Assembly (NCBI GenBank): GCA_000697665.1
Contig: KL197733.1
Span: 188,943-252,942 of the forward strand
Source: Jaapia argillacea MUCL 33604
Lineage: Eukaryota > Basidiomycota > Agaricomycetes > Jaapiales > Jaapiaceae
Direction of reading: 5' to 3'
Length of the DNA: 64,000 bases
Part shown: positions 21,951 through 53,854 of the stretch, in pieces
Layout: each line of letters opens with the position of its first letter
Numbering within the stretch: position 1 is the stretch's first letter
Position numbers and translations under genes: made by a program
The notes under the pieces: generated by a model
Told to the model about the DNA's origin: nothing
The model's input: only the letters and a program-made list of their open reading frames with translations
Databases searched by the model: none

Positions 21951-22279
21951 TTTGCGCCTGCGACATCATATGCTCTCTCTTGGTTAACTCTTCGTTGTTT
22001 GTCTCGTCATTTATTGTCTCTCACGTGTATTGGCAAGGAAAATATACATGCTCTACTAGTGCTATGGTTTTGACGGACTCCGTCGGCATATTCTCGGCTC
22101 AATATCTTTGCCGTCTCCCATGCTGAACATTGCCGCATATGGTATAAGACCTGCCTAATTCGGGCGTTTGAGATTTTCTCAGAACCTGGACGAGTCAGTA
22201 TGCCGCATGACTCCCACCTGCACCCACCTGCTTAAAAAATGGCTCGAATTTGGCTCACCTTTGCATATTAACAGGTACC
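21951..22279. promoter_or_regulatory. intergenic region with possible short uORF
   Basis: This is the 3' flank of the membrane-protein gene and the leader of the GNAT gene. An ATG at 22239 opens a 10-codon frame (MARIWLTFAY) that stops at 22271, eight bases before the ATG of the acetyltransferase. If the transcript begins upstream of it, this uORF could lower translation. The transcript start is unknown. Confidence 0.3.
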
Positions 22280-23311
22280 ATGGAGGTCGCTACTCTGCAT
22301 CCCCTTGATCTCGGTGTCCTGGAGGTCAGAGCTGCTCTCGTTGGCCTGCTGAAGGCTTACCTCCCTTATTCTCTGCCTGTACTGGGCACTCTCTGCCACA
22401 CTCATCCTCATTCGTCGCAATCTGAGCCAGTCAAATTAGATGTACCTCTTATCTTCGCATGCACATCTTTCGATCCTGCTCTGCTCTACCGCCAACCCTC
22501 CAGCGGGTTGGAGGAGGTCGTATCACGACACCCAGACCTTTTCTCAGTCATCGTCATCTCGCCCGTCGACAATAATCAAGGGAGATTTTTCTGTTCAGCA
22601 GATGCCGCTCCAGATGGGGCAAGCGACGCGGAAAATTCCCATGTCATAGCGGTCATGGAGGCCTTCCTCTCCATCGTCCGCGGTGACCTCAAGTTGTCAT
22701 CAGACATTCCTCTGAAGACCATCGAGAGGGAGGGCCTTGATCCAGGGATCCTTTTGGGTTCTATGCACATCAAATGGGTACCCTGTCTTGAGAAGTATTC
22801 TCAGAGGGTAGTGCCGTGCATGAAGTACATTTGTCCTCCTCGATCACGACTGTCGTTTAGTAAAGACATCTCTGGAGAAGGCCTGATCGTCTCCGAAATC
22901 CAGTCATCCGACATTCACGCTGTCGTATCCACGTCGCACGTAGCCCGTTCCAATGAATATATCCTCTCGCGCGCTCCTAGCTCAGTTTGCATCCGCACAT
23001 CCGACACATCCCCAACCCCTGGTCTTCCCATCGCATGGGCTCTAATTCACTCGGACGGGTCTATTGGAACTCTTCACGTGCAGCCAGAGTTTCGGAGGAG
23101 GGGCTTAGCCAGGGTGGTGATTGAGCAGCTTGTGGAAAAGGCTCAGTCGCTCGAAGGCTTGGATGGTGCGGGAGGGGGGGGAGCTATGGGATGGAATTGG
23201 GCGGACGTCATCCACGGGAATGGGCATGGGGAAGGCTTGTTTGAGTCTCTGGATGGATGGGAGAAGGGATGGGTGTGCTGTTGGGTGTTTTTGCGGTTCT
23301 TCCCCGCATAG
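22280..23311 (+). CDS. GNAT-family N-acetyltransferase (GLYAT/FR47-like)
   Basis: Single-exon protein of about 343 residues. The C-terminal third has the acetyl-CoA-binding signature of the GNAT fold: LPIAWALIHSDGSIGTLHV (strands 4/5) followed by QPEFRRRGLARVVIEQLVEK, where RRRGLA is the pyrophosphate-binding loop. The N-terminal two thirds resemble the long N-lobe of glycine-N-acyltransferase-like proteins. The substrate cannot be told. Start: the ATG in TACCATGG is the first in frame and has a good context. The C-terminus (GWVCCWVFLRFFPA) is Gly-rich, then hydrophobic, which is unusual for a GNAT. Confidence 0.75.
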   Translation: MEVATLHPLDLGVLEVRAALVGLLKAYLPYSLPVLGTLCHTHPHSSQSEPVKLDVPLIFACTSFDPALLYRQPSSGLEEVVSRHPDLFSVIVISPVDNNQGRFFCSADAAPDGASDAENSHVIAVMEAFLSIVRGDLKLSSDIPLKTIEREGLDPGILLGSMHIKWVPCLEKYSQRVVPCMKYICPPRSRLSFSKDISGEGLIVSEIQSSDIHAVVSTSHVARSNEYILSRAPSSVCIRTSDTSPTPGLPIAWALIHSDGSIGTLHVQPEFRRRGLARVVIEQLVEKAQSLEGLDGAGGGGAMGWNWADVIHGNGHGEGLFESLDGWEKGWVCCWVFLRFFPA

Positions 23312-45222: not shown

Positions 45223-46527
45223 ATGTCCTCGAAAACTCAGACGAGTGGCAAGGGCAACGAAGCCCTCGTCGCAAAGGAATTGTTTGACCTCTCCGGTCTC
45301 AAAGCCGTCGTTACTGGAGGTATGCACTTGATCAATTACTCTGCTTAGTCCCACTCGAGGCTTCCGAGTGTTAATGTCTTGAACGGTGGTGGCACATAGG
45401 CGGTACAGGTATCGGTCTGATGATCACCCAAGCCTTGGTTGCGAATGGTGTCACGGTTTACATCACCGCCCGTCGCAAAGAAGTCCTTGACACGGTGGTC
45501 GAGAAATACAGCCATGGCCCAGGAAAGATCATCGCGTGAGTCCACCGTCGATTGAACCTCTCCTCAGACGCTAGTAATTTACTTGATGTATGCGTAGCGC
45601 TTCGTGTGATATAACATACAAAAACGATGTCATGCGCTTGGCGAAGGAGATTGAAAAAATGGAGCCGAACGGAATCCATATCTTGGTTGGTTCGCTTGCT
45701 GTATGCGCTTTCGAGATCCTCAACGGCGACGGATTTGCGCCTCTCACGATAGGTAAACAATGCGGGCATAGCCAGAGAGAGGGGAACGACAGCTTTCCAA
45801 ACTGGCGAGCCAAACATGAAGGATGCCAATTCCATTTCCGAGCATCTTTTGAAGGCGACACCCGAATCATGGGCCGGTATGCCTCTCCTCCTCTCTCTTA
45901 AGAAGCTCACGACTAGGCTCACGATGCGTGACTAGAAACCTTCGATACGAACGTAACCGCTCAGTACTTTGTTTCAGCCGCTTTCCTCCCGTTACTTAGC
46001 AAGGGAACCGCCAATACAAGTGGCTATTCCTCTTCCATCATCAACGTAGCCTCTATCTCCGGCATGAGCAGAGCTAGTAGCAGCGGTCAATATGCATACG
46101 CTGCTTCTAAAGCAGGTCCGTACCTCTTGCTACACCGTCTGTTATGTTCGCAAATAACGAATGTAAAACATTCGACAGCCTTCCTCCACCTCTCCAAAAT
46201 GCTCGGCACGACTCTGTCCCAATGCAAAGTCCGCGTCAACACAATCTGCCCAGGAATTTTCCCAAGTGAGATGACAACCGACACATCAGACGAGACGAAC
46301 AAGTCGTTCTTGGAGGATAAAGGTAGGGACCTGCCAGCAGGCAGGAGTGGAGACGAGGGGGATATGGCTAGTGCCGTGTTGTATCTGGTGGGGAAGAATA
46401 GTTTGTTCACGAACGGACAAGTGCTTTATCCTGATGGAGGTCAGTGTCTACGCGTTTTCGTTGATGGGATACGGACTGATTTTAGATGTTTGTAGGTGCT
46501 TTGTTGACTTCGCCGGCTGCTTTCTGA
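45223..46527 (+). CDS. short-chain dehydrogenase/reductase (SDR) 1
   Basis: NAD(P)-dependent oxidoreductase of the classical SDR superfamily, about 300 residues. Seen in order: cofactor loop VVTGGGTGIGLM, the arginine after strand 2 (YITARRKEV, which suggests NADP), HILVNNAGIARERG, the catalytic Ser region INVASISGMSRASSSG, the catalytic YAYAASK, and VNTICPGIFPSEMT. The end is LYPDGGALLTSPAAF. Six short introns; the exon/intron border HIL|GTTGGT...GATAG|VNNAG was chosen because it restores the NNAG motif. The substrate is unknown. A second SDR starts 180 bp downstream on the same strand. Confidence 0.88.
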
Positions 46528-46706
46528 AGGTTTTCGAGGAAAGGTTGGCATCCAAAGGATGTGAAGTGTACGAAACCGGATGTACTCATACTAGCGATGT
46601 TACATGCCTACCGAGATCTAATCTAGTTTCTGCAATCCCAATCTTATCTTATCTAAGCTCACGTCCACCTTCCACCATTTCCCCAGACTCCCACAAGCCA
46701 GTTAAC

Positions 46707-47450
46707 ATGACCTACGACTTCCAGGACCGAGTATTCCTCATAACAGGAGCGGCGTCAGGCATCGGCCGCGCCACCGCTCTCAAGCTGTCCTCCCTTGGCG
46801 CCTCCCTCGCCCTCTGCGACATCAACTCCACCTCTCTCGTCACCACGACCTCCCTCTGCACCGGTTCCCATTTCACACACTCCTTCGACATCGCCTCCTC
46901 ATCCGAGTGTACCCATTTCATTAAAGACACCATATCACTATACGGAAAGATAGATGGGATATTCAATTGTGCTGGTATAAACCCCACTTCTATCCCACTT
47001 GAGGACACGACGGACGAGTATTGGGATATGATGGTGAATACAAACTTGAAGGGGACTTATAACATTACCCGCGCTGCCATTCCGTTCCTCAAATCAGGCT
47101 CTTCTTTCGTCAACGTCTCATCCATATGTGGCCTTCATCCCTTCCCCACCTTCGCCATCTACTGCGCCACCAAGTATGCCATCACCGGCTTTTCCAAATC
47201 GATGGCTTTGGAATTGGGACCGAAGGGTATAAGAGTGAACGTATTGGCTCCGGGGTTTATCGATACGCCCACGAATAGCGGTGTGATCGCGGGTGAGGAA
47301 GGCGTGAAGAGTTTGGAGGCGAAGGTATCGTTGGGCAGGCTGGGGAGTGCGGAGGAGTGTGCGGACGTTGTGGCTTTTTTGTTCAGTGATGGAGCCCGGT
47401 ATATGAATGGATCGGTGGTGGAGGTCAATGGAGGGACGGCAGAATCTTGA
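46707..47450 (+). CDS. short-chain dehydrogenase/reductase (SDR) 2, intronless
   Basis: 247-residue classical SDR in one exon. Motifs: FLITGAASGIGRATAL (cofactor loop), LCDINSTSL (Asp after strand 2 suggests NAD), IFNCAGINPTS (NCAG variant of NNAG), FVNVSSICGLHPF (catalytic Ser), YCATKYAITGF (catalytic Tyr and Lys), IRVNVLAPGFIDTP and VVEVNGGTAES. It resembles fungal and bacterial 3-oxoacyl-ACP reductase/glucose-dehydrogenase-type SDRs in the FabG group. Unlike its multi-intron neighbour it has no introns. The pair differ in cofactor hints and sequence and so are not a recent duplicate. Confidence 0.88.
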   Translation: MTYDFQDRVFLITGAASGIGRATALKLSSLGASLALCDINSTSLVTTTSLCTGSHFTHSFDIASSSECTHFIKDTISLYGKIDGIFNCAGINPTSIPLEDTTDEYWDMMVNTNLKGTYNITRAAIPFLKSGSSFVNVSSICGLHPFPTFAIYCATKYAITGFSKSMALELGPKGIRVNVLAPGFIDTPTNSGVIAGEEGVKSLEAKVSLGRLGSAEECADVVAFLFSDGARYMNGSVVEVNGGTAES

Positions 47451-49329: not shown

Positions 49330-51090
49330 AGTTATTTCGAGGAGATAGAAGGTAAGCTTAGATACACAGAAAGTAAATGCGGGGATGGACGATTAGATGA
49401 GAGTCGGTGCTAAATGAACACCGATGTCGTCCTGTGGGTTGGGAAAACGTGGGTCAGGCATGCAGCGCCTCATTGCAGCCTGTCAATTGTACGGGGGTCC
49501 CTGGTCACCGTCTCCCCCGTCGACACGCAGTGGTTTGTTCATCCGATTGCACGGAAGAAAGGTTCGAAGGCATCGCGAATGTGGAAAAATTAAGGTCCAA
49601 CGCGCAACACACCCTCAAACTTATCCAGGGCTTAGACTTTCAACTAAACAAAAACCACCGGTTTGGAACTTCCCATACACAGGGTTTCTTGTCATTCCAA
49701 ATCACTGGAAGGACCAGGAGTCCAAGGACAGGATAGTGTTTTTTTCCCGGGGTCGCCGGGAGGTGTCAGTGGACTCTCCGTCACGGTCCCTCGCCGTCGG
49801 ACCACAAGTTGAACGGCCTTACTTGTTTGATCCGAGGTGCCCATTCTCTCCTACTTATCGCTACCGTTTTGACGCCCAGGACTCCCACTAGCCTTGCTAC
49901 AGACTAGTACTGCTGCCTCGCTCCGCTGGAAAAGGCTAAGACGTTCAACTTCACGGATCTTCTGTTGACTTTCGATGGTCAGGCTCTGTAGATTCTTTTC
50001 CCAGTCTGCTTACTTTGGCAGGCGTTGTGTTTCAGCATGAGGTATCGCACCAGCCCCCCGGACTAAGTACTCCATCGCACCCAATTCTGAAAGCTCCCAC
50101 CTCCTTTGGGTTGCGCCCAACTTGGGATGGAGGTGGGCCTCGACGGTCATGCTCACTTCCCATAAGTCTAGTTTAGGGTAAGCACCGTGTCCCTCGTTTC
50201 AACCTAGATGGCCGTCATCATGGAAGAGACCACGAGACAAGACGGCCCGGGCTATGAGGCGCCACCCCATCACACAGGACCACCTCATGCAAGGAATTCA
50301 ATGGCTCAATATCCGCACAACGTCCGCACAATGCAGACCTGTTCGACTACCATTTCGATCAAGTCTGGCGTTACGACAACATCGGAAATAAAGACACGGG
50401 TGATTCGCATCAGGAAAAGACAAGGCGTGTAAGTGAATGGAGCTAACAAGTCATGGGGCACGCAAGGCGAACGGTGGACACCACCCTAGCACAAGTCCGT
50501 CGCCTTGCAGTTAAAGGATACATGTCAACGATAGAAACTGACTGGCTGTTCGTGCAGGTCCACACAGACAAATCGCATACCCGTCCAGCACCCATGACCA
50601 TCCGCAACGCCTTGAGGCTCCATACACCACCATTGCTTGGGGAAGTGGGATTCCGTTTGAAGGCACTATCACCGCGGTAGCGATACCTGAAGATAGAAGC
50701 ACTCACATATGACATCGGAAAGCACTCGGTAAACGTAGATCTTCCGACATGAATTCCCCTTGGGGCTGTTGCACTTGAAATTGCGGAGTATGGCGGAGGG
50801 TTGTAGATGCTTGAAGCTGGCGGATATTGTTAGGATATCAAGCGAGATAGGGATACTCACAACACGGCCAGCCGTGGTCCCCGCAAACAAGAAAATGCCG
50901 TCTACATTAGAAAGTGTAGAAGGAAAAGGAACGACCAAGCATTAACAGGGAACGCGGTCAAAAGATAAAGCATACTAGAATATGAAAAGCCAAACGAAGA
51001 TAAAAAAAAACAACGGAGCCAAGAACGTGTTTACCAAAACAATCCTTCCCGACTACATCATGCCATACTCATCACACGACTTCTCATATC
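49330..51090. other. long intergenic region, one doubtful small gene
   Basis: This 1.76 kb lies between two minus-strand genes. At 50208-50432 the + strand shows an ATG-led frame (MAVIMEETTRQDGPGYEAPP). In a different frame further on there is a strongly coding-like exon (about 50338-50429: LFDYHFDQVWRYDNIGNKDT) that ends in GTAAGT. I found no intron that joins them; a near-duplicate 11-bp string (CGCACAACGTC/CGCACAATGCA) lies at the switch. On the minus strand 50430-50940 there are coding-like scraps too. None is solid enough to call. Confidence 0.3.
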
Positions 51091-52186
51091 TCATATCTCC
51101 AGCCCGACAAGCACGTAAGTCGGATCAACCTGGAATGGAGGTTTAGTAACGACGGTGCCACCAACGTACATCATTGAGTGAATGAGGCTGCTCAAAGCAG
51201 GTGATGACCTCTCCAAAGCAATGACGAGGGCTGAACACTCGAGTCGTTCGTCGGCCAAATCCAGGAGAGCAACGATGCTAGAGACCAGGCCCATTAATCA
51301 GCGAGAGGCAAAGAGCGAGAACACTCGGCACATACCTTTCCCTGAGGTTGATGTGATCAGCGCTCTTTCCGTCAACGTAGAAAGTCTTCGCCTTGCCGGG
51401 CAACTCGAGAACAACTCCATCAAAGGAAGCACCTAGGTCGGGGGCAGAGATCGAGACACTTTTCGCATACGGCAAAGCACTGAGTCCATTCCGAGGGAAC
51501 AGTGTAGTAAGGAAATCCAAAGCCGAGTTTGATTGCTTGGCGCTGATAGCTGCAACGCTCCCGTTACCCTCCTCAGCCTCATCGGGGGTAAGCGGAGGCG
51601 TAGCGAGGTATTCAGCGGTTGGGATTTGACGGGGCCTGATAGCTTGGGGCGCGACTAAGGACGCAGGTGGAGTGTAGGAAACAGAGCCCAATGAAGTGTG
51701 GATGTCGTCAGCAGGTGGGGTAGGCGGGTAAACAATAGATTTTGCAAAAAAGTCGGGCTCGTGAATTGAAGATGATGAATCGGAAGATGAATGGTCGGAA
51801 AACGGGGAGGCGGAAAAGATTCGCGCCGGACTGTCTCTCACCCAGTCCGACGACCCTCGATCAGGAGGGCATTTTTCGTTAGGGACGTCAAAACCGCCAC
51901 TGCAACCCATCGTGAGTGGCAAGTCGGATTTGGTGGGAAAGGCACTCACCCCCGGTCCGCCAGAGAACGTAGTAGAGTAGTAGTAGAGATCGTCGGTGCC
52001 CTGCATGTGGCAAACAGCGAGAACGCTAGGAGTGGCGTCAAAGGAGAGAGCCCCATCCCCAACGGCTTGACGGCCGTTGCTAAACGAATCTCAATTGTCA
52101 GTCAAACATGAAGGCCTTAAGGAAACGTACGTGGGGCAAAGACTAAATTGCTGATTGGGGGAATTTAACATGGTAATATTCGACAT
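51091..52186 (-). CDS. OAZ1: ornithine decarboxylase antizyme (+1 frameshift gene)
   Basis: Antizyme binds ornithine decarboxylase, blocks it and sends it to the proteasome without ubiquitin. Its synthesis needs a polyamine-stimulated +1 ribosomal frameshift. ORF1 (65 codons) starts MSNITMLNSPNQQFS, crosses one intron and ends GGPGWRF-stop. ORF2 continues in +1 frame (DVPNEKCPPDRGSS...) to the conserved antizyme fold: AKTFYVDGKSADHINLRESI, LDLADERLECSALVIALERS, LSSLIHSMMYVGGTVV, ending YVLVGLEI. The shift site is UUU UGA C at 51887-51893, formed only after a 50-nt intron (51900-51949) is removed. With that intron kept, one frame runs from ORF1 into ORF2 without a shift. A further intron splits LRE/SIV. 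Length and layout match fungal antizymes. Confidence 0.9.
51887..51893 (-). promoter_or_regulatory. programmed +1 frameshift site UUU-UGA-C
   Basis: On the spliced mRNA the last ORF1 codons are UGG CGG UUU followed by UGA C. Slipping one base forward reads UUU then GAC and enters ORF2. A slow UGA stop in the A-site after UUU is one of the known antizyme shift sites. Nearby stimulators were not searched by computation. Confidence 0.8.
51900..51949 (-). other. 50-nt intron whose retention bypasses the frameshift
   Basis: Begins GTGAGT and ends TTGCAG, with CTCAC as a candidate branch site. It has no stop in the ORF1 frame, and its length (2 mod 3) places retained transcripts directly in the ORF2 frame, adding 17 codons (VSAFPTKSDLPLTMGCS). 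Confidence 0.7.
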
Positions 52187-52960
52187 GTGATGCCAACTTG
52201 GTTGTGGTGAGGGTTTTAAACGTGGAGGGTTGCGTTGCTGTGAATGCAGAGCCTATGCAACGAAGTAGACAGGTAGTCAGAAGAGAGTCAAAGCAACCGA
52301 AACCTAGGCCACTGACGAGAAGATTACTAGCGAAGGGGTGAACTTGTTCGGTCAGCGATGTGGGTTCTGCGAGCAAAGGGAATCGCCGCAGTTGAGCCCA
52401 CGTTATAAGAGCAAAAGTGGCGCTACTTACGTAAGCAACGGTGGCTGATGGATCCTGCACGTTCCTCCTCTTGGTGCAGAAGTATATTCTAACTTCGCTA
52501 AGGGCAAAGCGCTGAAACTCGGATCTTGCTCGTCGAAAATACGAAGGTTCAAGCAAGGGGTAGCTCAGATATAGACTGAAATCTGAACAACGTTGCAAAC
52601 GCGTGTCAATGGCATAAAGTCCTCTCGGCAACTTGGTCCCCGGTCAAGTCTCTGGACCGTGGTCTCTGATGGACCTGAGTGCCTGAATCTTGTCCCAATC
52701 ACATCGAGCTTGCATCGACCGACGAGCAAACACCTCGCTACCCTCAAGACGTGAGTACCATTCTTCTGTATTGCCGTCTAGTCCGAAGCCTATTGTCCTT
52801 TCGTATGGCTGAGAGAATTCGCGAGGTGGGAGAGGGAGGATGGGCCGATGGATGGACTGGCGTTTGAACGGATGAAGTGTTCGAGGACATAGATTTCGGG
52901 ACCCCATATCACCAGTACTCACCTCTTGATTTTGTTCAGTAACCTTCCGGCACAATCGAA
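52187..52960. promoter_or_regulatory. divergent upstream region of antizyme and RPS2, with RPS2 leader intron
   Basis: This 774 bp separates two highly expressed genes in opposite directions. On the + side, GTGAGT at 52751 and TTTTGTTCAG ending at 52940 would make a 5'-UTR intron directly before the RPS2 leader, common in fungal ribosomal-protein genes. On the - side the frames up to 52631 have no antizyme similarity and are read as 5' UTR. Confidence 0.5.
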
Positions 52961-53854
52961 ATGGCTGACGCTGCACGCGGACGTGGTGGATTTGGACGTG
53001 GACGTGGTGACCGAGGCAGGGGTAGGCGAGGACCCCGCCGTGGCGGTCGCAAGGATGATGAGAAAGAGTGGTACGCCCAGTTATCCCCACCTCAATTCAA
53101 GGAGTCCCTGCAAACCGCATGGATTATTACTCCAGGGTCCCCGTCACCAAACTCGGCCGTCTCGTGAAGGACGGAAAGATCAAGTCTATGGAAGAGATCT
53201 ACCTCTTCTCTCTCCCTGTCAAGGAGTACCAAATTGTCGACTTCTTCCTCCCCAAACTCAAGGATGAAGTTATGAAGATCATGCCCGTCCAGAAACAAAC
53301 TCGTGCCGGCCAGCGTACCCGTTTCAAGGCTTTCGTTGCCATCGGAGATTTCGACGGACATGTTGGATTGGGTGTGAAATGTGCAAAGGAAGTCGCCACC
53401 GCCATCCGTGGTGCTATCATTCTCGCCAAGTTGTCCGTTATCCCCGTTCGGAGAGGTTACTGGGGTGCCAAGCTCGGTGACCCCCATACTGTCCCATCGA
53501 AGGTCAGCGGGAAAGTTGGTTCAGTCATGTGCCGGCTTATCCCTGCGCCTCGTGGAACTGGTATCGTCGCTGCCCCTGCGGCCAAGCGATTGCTGCAGAT
53601 GGCTGGTGTTCAGGATGTCTACACGTCGTCCAAGGGTTCAACGGCGACGATGGGTAACTTCTTGAAGGCAACGTTCGAGGCTGTGAGTCACTTTGTTCCT
53701 CCTACTTGGTGGCGTTCTCATCCTTGCTTGACAGATCACCAAAACTTACGCTTTCATTACCCCCGACCTCTGGCGCGAGATCCCCTTGTCACAAGTACCT
53801 TATGATGAGCACAGTGCTCATCTTCAGCTCACTGCCGGCAAGAAGGCGTATTAG
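52961..53854 (+). CDS. RPS2: 40S ribosomal protein uS5 (RPS2)
   Basis: Component of the small ribosomal subunit near the mRNA entry channel, needed for decoding accuracy. It opens with the eukaryotic RGG-rich tail [19 protein letters not shown]. The S5 domains follow: [96 protein letters not shown] and [20 protein letters not shown]. Introns interrupt after KEW (TG|GTACGC) and after TFEA (GCT|GTGAGT); the last exon ends LTAGKKAY. Family certain. Confidence 0.97.

Follow-up and report, generated by a model that had tools for sequence, protein, structure and literature searches.

Ornithine decarboxylase antizyme binds and inhibits ornithine decarboxylase, polyamines raise its synthesis, and antizyme frameshifting is a textbook regulated frameshift. 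The closest described systems are the Agaricomycete antizyme mRNAs, a set of 34 Agaricomycetes and one Dacrymycete in which Coprinopsis cinerea is the tested species (Yordanova et al. 2015, PMC4505036). In the sections of that paper used here, UUU-UGA is given for every Agaricomycete antizyme sequence analysed, ORF1 carries an invariant Ala-Val dipeptide, and a conserved peptide occupies codons -15 to -5; among 55 Basidiomycota sequences, this nascent-peptide element was found only in 34 of 34 Agaricomycetes and one Dacrymycete. The same sections describe module A, which comprises 7 nt and begins with the third base of codon -4 (GGG), a 3' structure that begins 19 nt past the shift site, is abutted by an invariant AAAU and has a second loop of seven nucleotides with six bases invariant, and, in C. 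cinerea, a 14-bp ORF1 stem of at least 30 kcal/mol located 106 nt before the shift site. With the full C. cinerea cassette, 38% shifting was reported in HEK293T cells with DFMO and 50 uM spermidine. The paper treats mRNAs, and "intron" and "splic" are absent from its main text. In the sections used of a second paper (PMC9604110), the peptide letters are published as YYYSTTFSGG, and the Ganoderma lucidum antizyme GlAZ likewise combines YYYSTTFSGG with a TTTGA shift. Two G. lucidum database models were found there to be one antizyme gene, and one of them holds a GT-AG intron region, mentioned without a position.

The gene described here lies on the minus strand at 52186..51091 of the window, by which we mean the whole 64-kb stretch of Jaapia argillacea DNA analysed. 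Judged by its sequence, it is an Agaricomycete-type ornithine decarboxylase antizyme gene, of a kind already known. An earlier note on this DNA had recognized an antizyme without giving the strand, and a Pfam search bears out the identity: the 311-aa fusion matched PF02100 (ODC_AZ) over residues 218-299 with 45.2 bits (cut-off 24.2, E 9.7e-12). The ORF2 product had no match to solved structures (phmmer, E 1), and Rfam gave none in 51000-53000 at E 1. The minus-strand reading comprises four exons, separated by introns of 51, 50 and 58 nt:

52131..52186, minus strand: exon 1, ATG at 52186, MSNITMLNSPNQQFSLCP; the start is predicted, as the first in-frame ATG past an upstream stop.
52080..52130, minus strand: intron 1, 51 nt, GTACGT..CTGAC..TTTAG.
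51950..52079, minus strand: exon 2, the remainder of ORF1, through codon -4 (GGG).
51900..51949, minus strand: intron 2, 50 nt, phase 0, GTGAGT..CTCAC..TTGCAG, with a branch-like A 13 nt before its end.
51336..51899, minus strand: exon 3, the shift site and the bulk of ORF2.
51278..51335, minus strand: intron 3, 58 nt, GTATGT..CTGAT..TCTAG.
51091..51277, minus strand: exon 4, the C-terminal antizyme domain, with YVLVGLEI and then the stop at its end.

Once spliced, ORF1 has 65 codons (MSNITMLNSPNQQFSLCPTNGRQAVGDGALSFDATPSVLAVCHMQGTDDLYYYSTTFSGGPGWRF) and ends with UUU UGA in frame 0, while ORF2 (DVPNEKC...VLVGLEI) lies in the +1 frame relative to it. The frames thus confirm the earlier proposal that removal of the 50-nt intron leaves UGG CGG UUU UGA C at the end of ORF1 and the antizyme body in +1. 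The predicted product of a +1 shift on the spliced message is 311 aa, compared with 333 aa for full-length GlAZ, whose ORF1 is given as 66 aa in the sections used (PMC9604110). The elements of the published cassette can be placed on the gene as follows:

52050..52137, minus strand: 14-bp ORF1 stem with a 3-nt bulge, 5' arm 52137-52131 plus 52079-52073, 3' arm 52066-52050.
51953..51985, minus strand: nascent-peptide signal YYYSTTFSGGP, codons -15 to -5, spliced reading.
51888..51899, minus strand: UGG CGG UUU UGA, codons -3 to -1 and the ORF1 stop, spliced reading.
51824..51874, minus strand: AAAU and two abutting stem-loops (6 and 10 bp) at +19 from UUU_U, a putative 3' stimulator.

The spliced codons -4 to -1 are GGG UGG CGG UUU, and the junction (marked by a slash) reads TCT GGC GGA CCG GGG/TGG CGG TTT TGA C, in which module A is the 7-nt GUGGCGG and GGG UGG CGN precedes UUU_UGA. 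The predicted +1 shift on UUU_U leads to GAC (51889-51887), and the spliced sequence has the arrangement of two ORFs that a +1 shift at the ORF1 stop UGA would join. AAAU ends 19 nt past UUU_U, followed by the stems of 6 and 10 bp, and the 3' structure has a z of -3.34 (300 dinucleotide shuffles). With introns 1 and 2 removed, 106 nt separate the end of the ORF1 stem from the first U of the shift codon. The spliced stem folds at -26.1 kcal/mol with a z of -3.58 (300 dinucleotide shuffles), and the unspliced 105-nt region of the stem has a z of 0.05. The J. argillacea gene shares with the Agaricomycete mRNAs, as described in the sections used of PMC4505036, the UUU-UGA, the peptide signal covering codons -15 to -5, module A (codon -4 being GGG), the AAAU-abutted double stem-loop at +19, and the 14-bp stem 106 nt upstream. 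It differs from them in codon -2, which is CGG here and CGU in C. cinerea, the third base being the most variable of that codon, in the second 3' loop, which folds as 9 nt here against the published 7, and in the energy of the ORF1 stem (-26 kcal/mol here against at least 30 published). The Ala-Val dipeptide occurs twice in ORF1, as QAVG and LAVC.

We then considered which of these features depend on splicing. The UUU_UGA in the ORF1 frame, the peptide at -15 to -5 and the stem 106 nt upstream appear only after splicing: removal of intron 2 is required for the frame of UUU, for the position of the peptide and for the 106-nt spacing, and removal of intron 1 is required for the ORF1 stem. Intron 1 splits the 5' arm of this stem (52137-52050), which exists only in spliced RNA. 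In contrast, module A and the 3' structure are present whether or not the RNA is spliced, both lying in exon 3 save for the first G of module A, which the last G of intron 2 also supplies. UGG CGG UUU UGA C is wholly within exon 3, and in genomic DNA it is contiguous with module A in another frame. The earlier wording that splicing builds the frameshift site thus holds for the frame and for the join to the nascent-peptide signal, but not for UUU_UGA and module A, which are contiguous before splicing. A more exact wording is that the site exists beforehand, and that splicing brings it into frame and links it with the nascent-peptide signal.

Since these three published Agaricomycete features appear only in the spliced reading, intron 2 is almost certainly real and removed, as far as sequence can tell. 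Its splice sites were scored against the introns predicted in the window by a simple ab initio gene finder, written for and trained on the window itself, which is crude and makes predictions unchecked against RNA. It predicted 127 introns, of which 116 had a gene score above 15 and a length of 44-90 nt and were kept; the other 11 were dropped. The donor and acceptor of intron 2 score above 84% of the 116 predicted introns; those of introns 1 and 3 stand at 78% and 87%, respectively, and with scores so close to theirs the sites of intron 2 do not look weak. Five GT-AG pairs around the junction, intron 2 included, exceed weak score limits, and the other four leave ORF2 out of frame. An alternative acceptor at 51831 would give a 119-nt intron (51949-51831) with a score of 8.65 against 8.84; its use deletes the shift site and does not restore ORF2.

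Intron 2 stayed in the model produced by the gene finder, which predicted a 328-aa protein, and no stop interrupts the genomic frame between 52090 and 51281. Both results would suit a gene with no intron at 51949..51900, whose 328-aa open frame would simply be the protein, made without any frameshift. However, this reading takes module A and UUU_UGA out of the ORF1 frame, adds 50 nt between them and the nascent-peptide signal, lengthens the stem distance to 156 nt instead of 106 nt, and disregards the canonical GT..CTCAC..CAG signals exactly at the right boundary. As the frame and the spacing of the elements disagree with it, we rejected it as very improbable. There is nevertheless a practical trap, in that a gene finder may annotate the shift-free 328 aa and hide the frameshift, and automatic annotation might do the same.

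We next turned to the consequences of retaining intron 2. Frame translation bears out what had been claimed of its length and frame: intron 2 is of length 3n+2, free of stops, and adds 17 codons on retention, so that frame 0 continues into ORF2 without a shift to give 328 aa, 17 codons more than the 311-aa shifted product. The introns can be retained in eight combinations, and in only one of these, with intron 2 kept and the other two removed, does frame 0 run to the complete antizyme C-terminus without shifting. Retention of intron 1 leads to a stop after 31 codons. When intron 3 alone is retained, the ORF1 product stays 65 aa; its terminal TAG falls in the ORF2 frame as a stop, and retention of introns 2 and 3 together yields a 285-aa product that ends there. 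In a toy calculation, which takes export and translation of the retained RNA to equal those of spliced RNA, 5% retention would supply half of the antizyme at 5% shifting and 12% at 38% shifting, and 2% retention would supply 29% and 5%, respectively. Of the earlier interpretation, then, the antizyme, the intron, the UUU_UGA +1 arrangement and the frame arithmetic stand, all by sequence, and the claim that splicing builds the site needs rewording; the occurrence of retention, the export and translation of such RNA, and its regulation or conservation are hypothetical.

Intron 2 also contains an AUG (51910-51908) in the ORF2 frame (MGCSGGFDVP...), and an RNA starting within the intron could yield antizyme without ORF1 or a shift. 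The MGCS start of this frame presumably resembles an N-myristoylation start.

To what extent this property is unusual can be judged from the 116 predicted introns, among which intron 2 itself is not counted. Lengths of 3n+2 were found for 43 and freedom from stops for 49, and 12 of the 116 combined both, although the gene finder tends to miss introns of length 3n that lack stops, which makes these base rates rough. In shuffled sequences, the probability of freedom from stops was 0.55 with the pooled intron composition and 0.68 with the bases of intron 2 itself, which, multiplied by 1/3, gives about 0.18-0.23 for both properties. They are thus expected in roughly 10-23% of introns and are unremarkable for a single intron; since 12 of the 116 predicted introns share them, one sequence says nothing about selection. 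The coding score of intron 2 is +0.013 per nt, against a mean of -0.052 (SD 0.056) for the predicted introns, a difference of about 1.15 SD. Intron 2 is slightly more coding-like than the others, which weakly favours its translation but is not meaningful alone.

We consider it very probable that this is a standard Agaricomycete antizyme gene in which the bypass on intron 2 retention is a fortuitous property of the frame. This reading is favoured by the PF02100 match, the occurrence of the published features at their published places once the RNA is spliced, the strong splice sites and the base rate of 12 in 116. On the other side stand the departures in codon -2, the stem energy, the second loop and the two Ala-Val pairs, the slightly more coding-like character of intron 2 than of other predicted introns, and the fact that intron 2 alone of the three permits a bypass, as a selected bypass would also look. 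Within the same reading, retention may occur as noise, the retained RNA staying nuclear or yielding only rare leakage, so that the antizyme level is unaffected, a proposition to which we give slightly less than even chances. Retention is common in mushroom transcriptomes, according to the sections used of PMC5034255 and PMC10532568, and intron 2 is unremarkable, in keeping with such noise; on the other hand, RNA that retains intron 2 would have no early stop and, unlike that retaining intron 1, might escape nonsense-mediated decay.

The alternative is a regulated bypass, in which controlled retention of intron 2, in response to development, stress or polyamines, would produce a 328-aa antizyme with a 17-residue insert past the nascent-peptide signal, independently of the ribosomal sensor. 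The combination of 3n+2 with freedom from stops is unique to intron 2 among the three introns of the gene, and in the toy arithmetic half of the antizyme would come from 5% retention at 5% shifting. Furthermore, in the sections used of the respective papers, retention is the commonest type of alternative splicing in Schizophyllum commune, with 33% of events (PMC5034255), and is a major type in C. cinerea, where only the PSI of retention differed significantly between stages (PMC10532568); the G. lucidum antizyme model with a GT-AG intron region (PMC9604110, in the sections used) offers a lead only. However, the same property is expected in about 10-23% of introns, the splice sites of intron 2 look strong, and a leak would weaken control by feedback, in which case selection might act against it. 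We regard a regulated bypass as improbable here.

In the literature, no intron-retention bypass of the antizyme shift was described among the matches listed, which is weak evidence of absence, with the principal survey, that of Ivanov and Atkins (2007), outside the scope. No antizyme intron is mentioned in the sections used of PMC5009743, and "antizyme" is absent from the main text of PMC5034255 and PMC10532568. In the sections used, the search for frameshifts in Euplotes treats retained introns as a confounder that has to be ruled out (PMC4759687), and the antizyme finder of PMC2375905 is meant for spliced or intronless sequence; the comparison also took in sections of PMC4528330 and PMC5644247. 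Protein-derived scans found 4 stretches that fit the pattern in viral contigs and 66 pattern matches in prokaryotic genome contigs, none of either confirmed by tblastn, which says nothing on fungi. Exact matching of two degenerate codon patterns for the nascent peptide, with serine restricted to TCN, gave no hit in viral or prokaryotic contigs, a result equally uninformative for fungi.

Elsewhere in the window, the divergent neighbour of the antizyme gene, at 52962-53854 on the plus strand, is ribosomal protein uS5/RPS2, with PF00333 and PF03719 in the open stretch 53062-53802 (Pfam). Its start is at 52962 by reading of the sequence, whereas the gene finder began at 53119, and the two genes may share a promoter region. 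Also on the plus strand are a GNAT acetyltransferase-type domain in the open stretch 22211-23308 (FR47-like, 31.3 bits) and a short-chain dehydrogenase (46275-47447, PF13561, 203.6 bits), in which about 150 extra residues precede the domain.

Finally, the standard antizyme gene that we favour would work as follows. The three short introns would be removed, and the loss of intron 2 would bring the nascent-peptide signal (codons -15 to -5) beside module A and UUU_UGA and set UUU in the zero frame. By analogy with the published antizymes, from which we infer shifting, polyamine response and function alike, ribosomes would either stop at UGA after 65 aa or, when polyamines are high, shift +1 to produce the 311-aa antizyme. 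If intron 2 were retained, the 328-aa antizyme would be made without a shift, probably as at most a small, unregulated, polyamine-independent leak. Retention as a bypass is a valid but so far hypothetical idea, with a coincidence rate that we estimate from sequence at between about one in ten and one in four. It is a long shot, marginally longer than a regulated bypass in this gene, that intron 2 serves mushroom antizymes as a conserved splicing switch, whose regulated retention, for example in fruiting or spore germination, would provide both sensed and unsensed output. If splicing did set the share of antizyme that escapes the shift, it would constitute a second layer of control on polyamine homeostasis.
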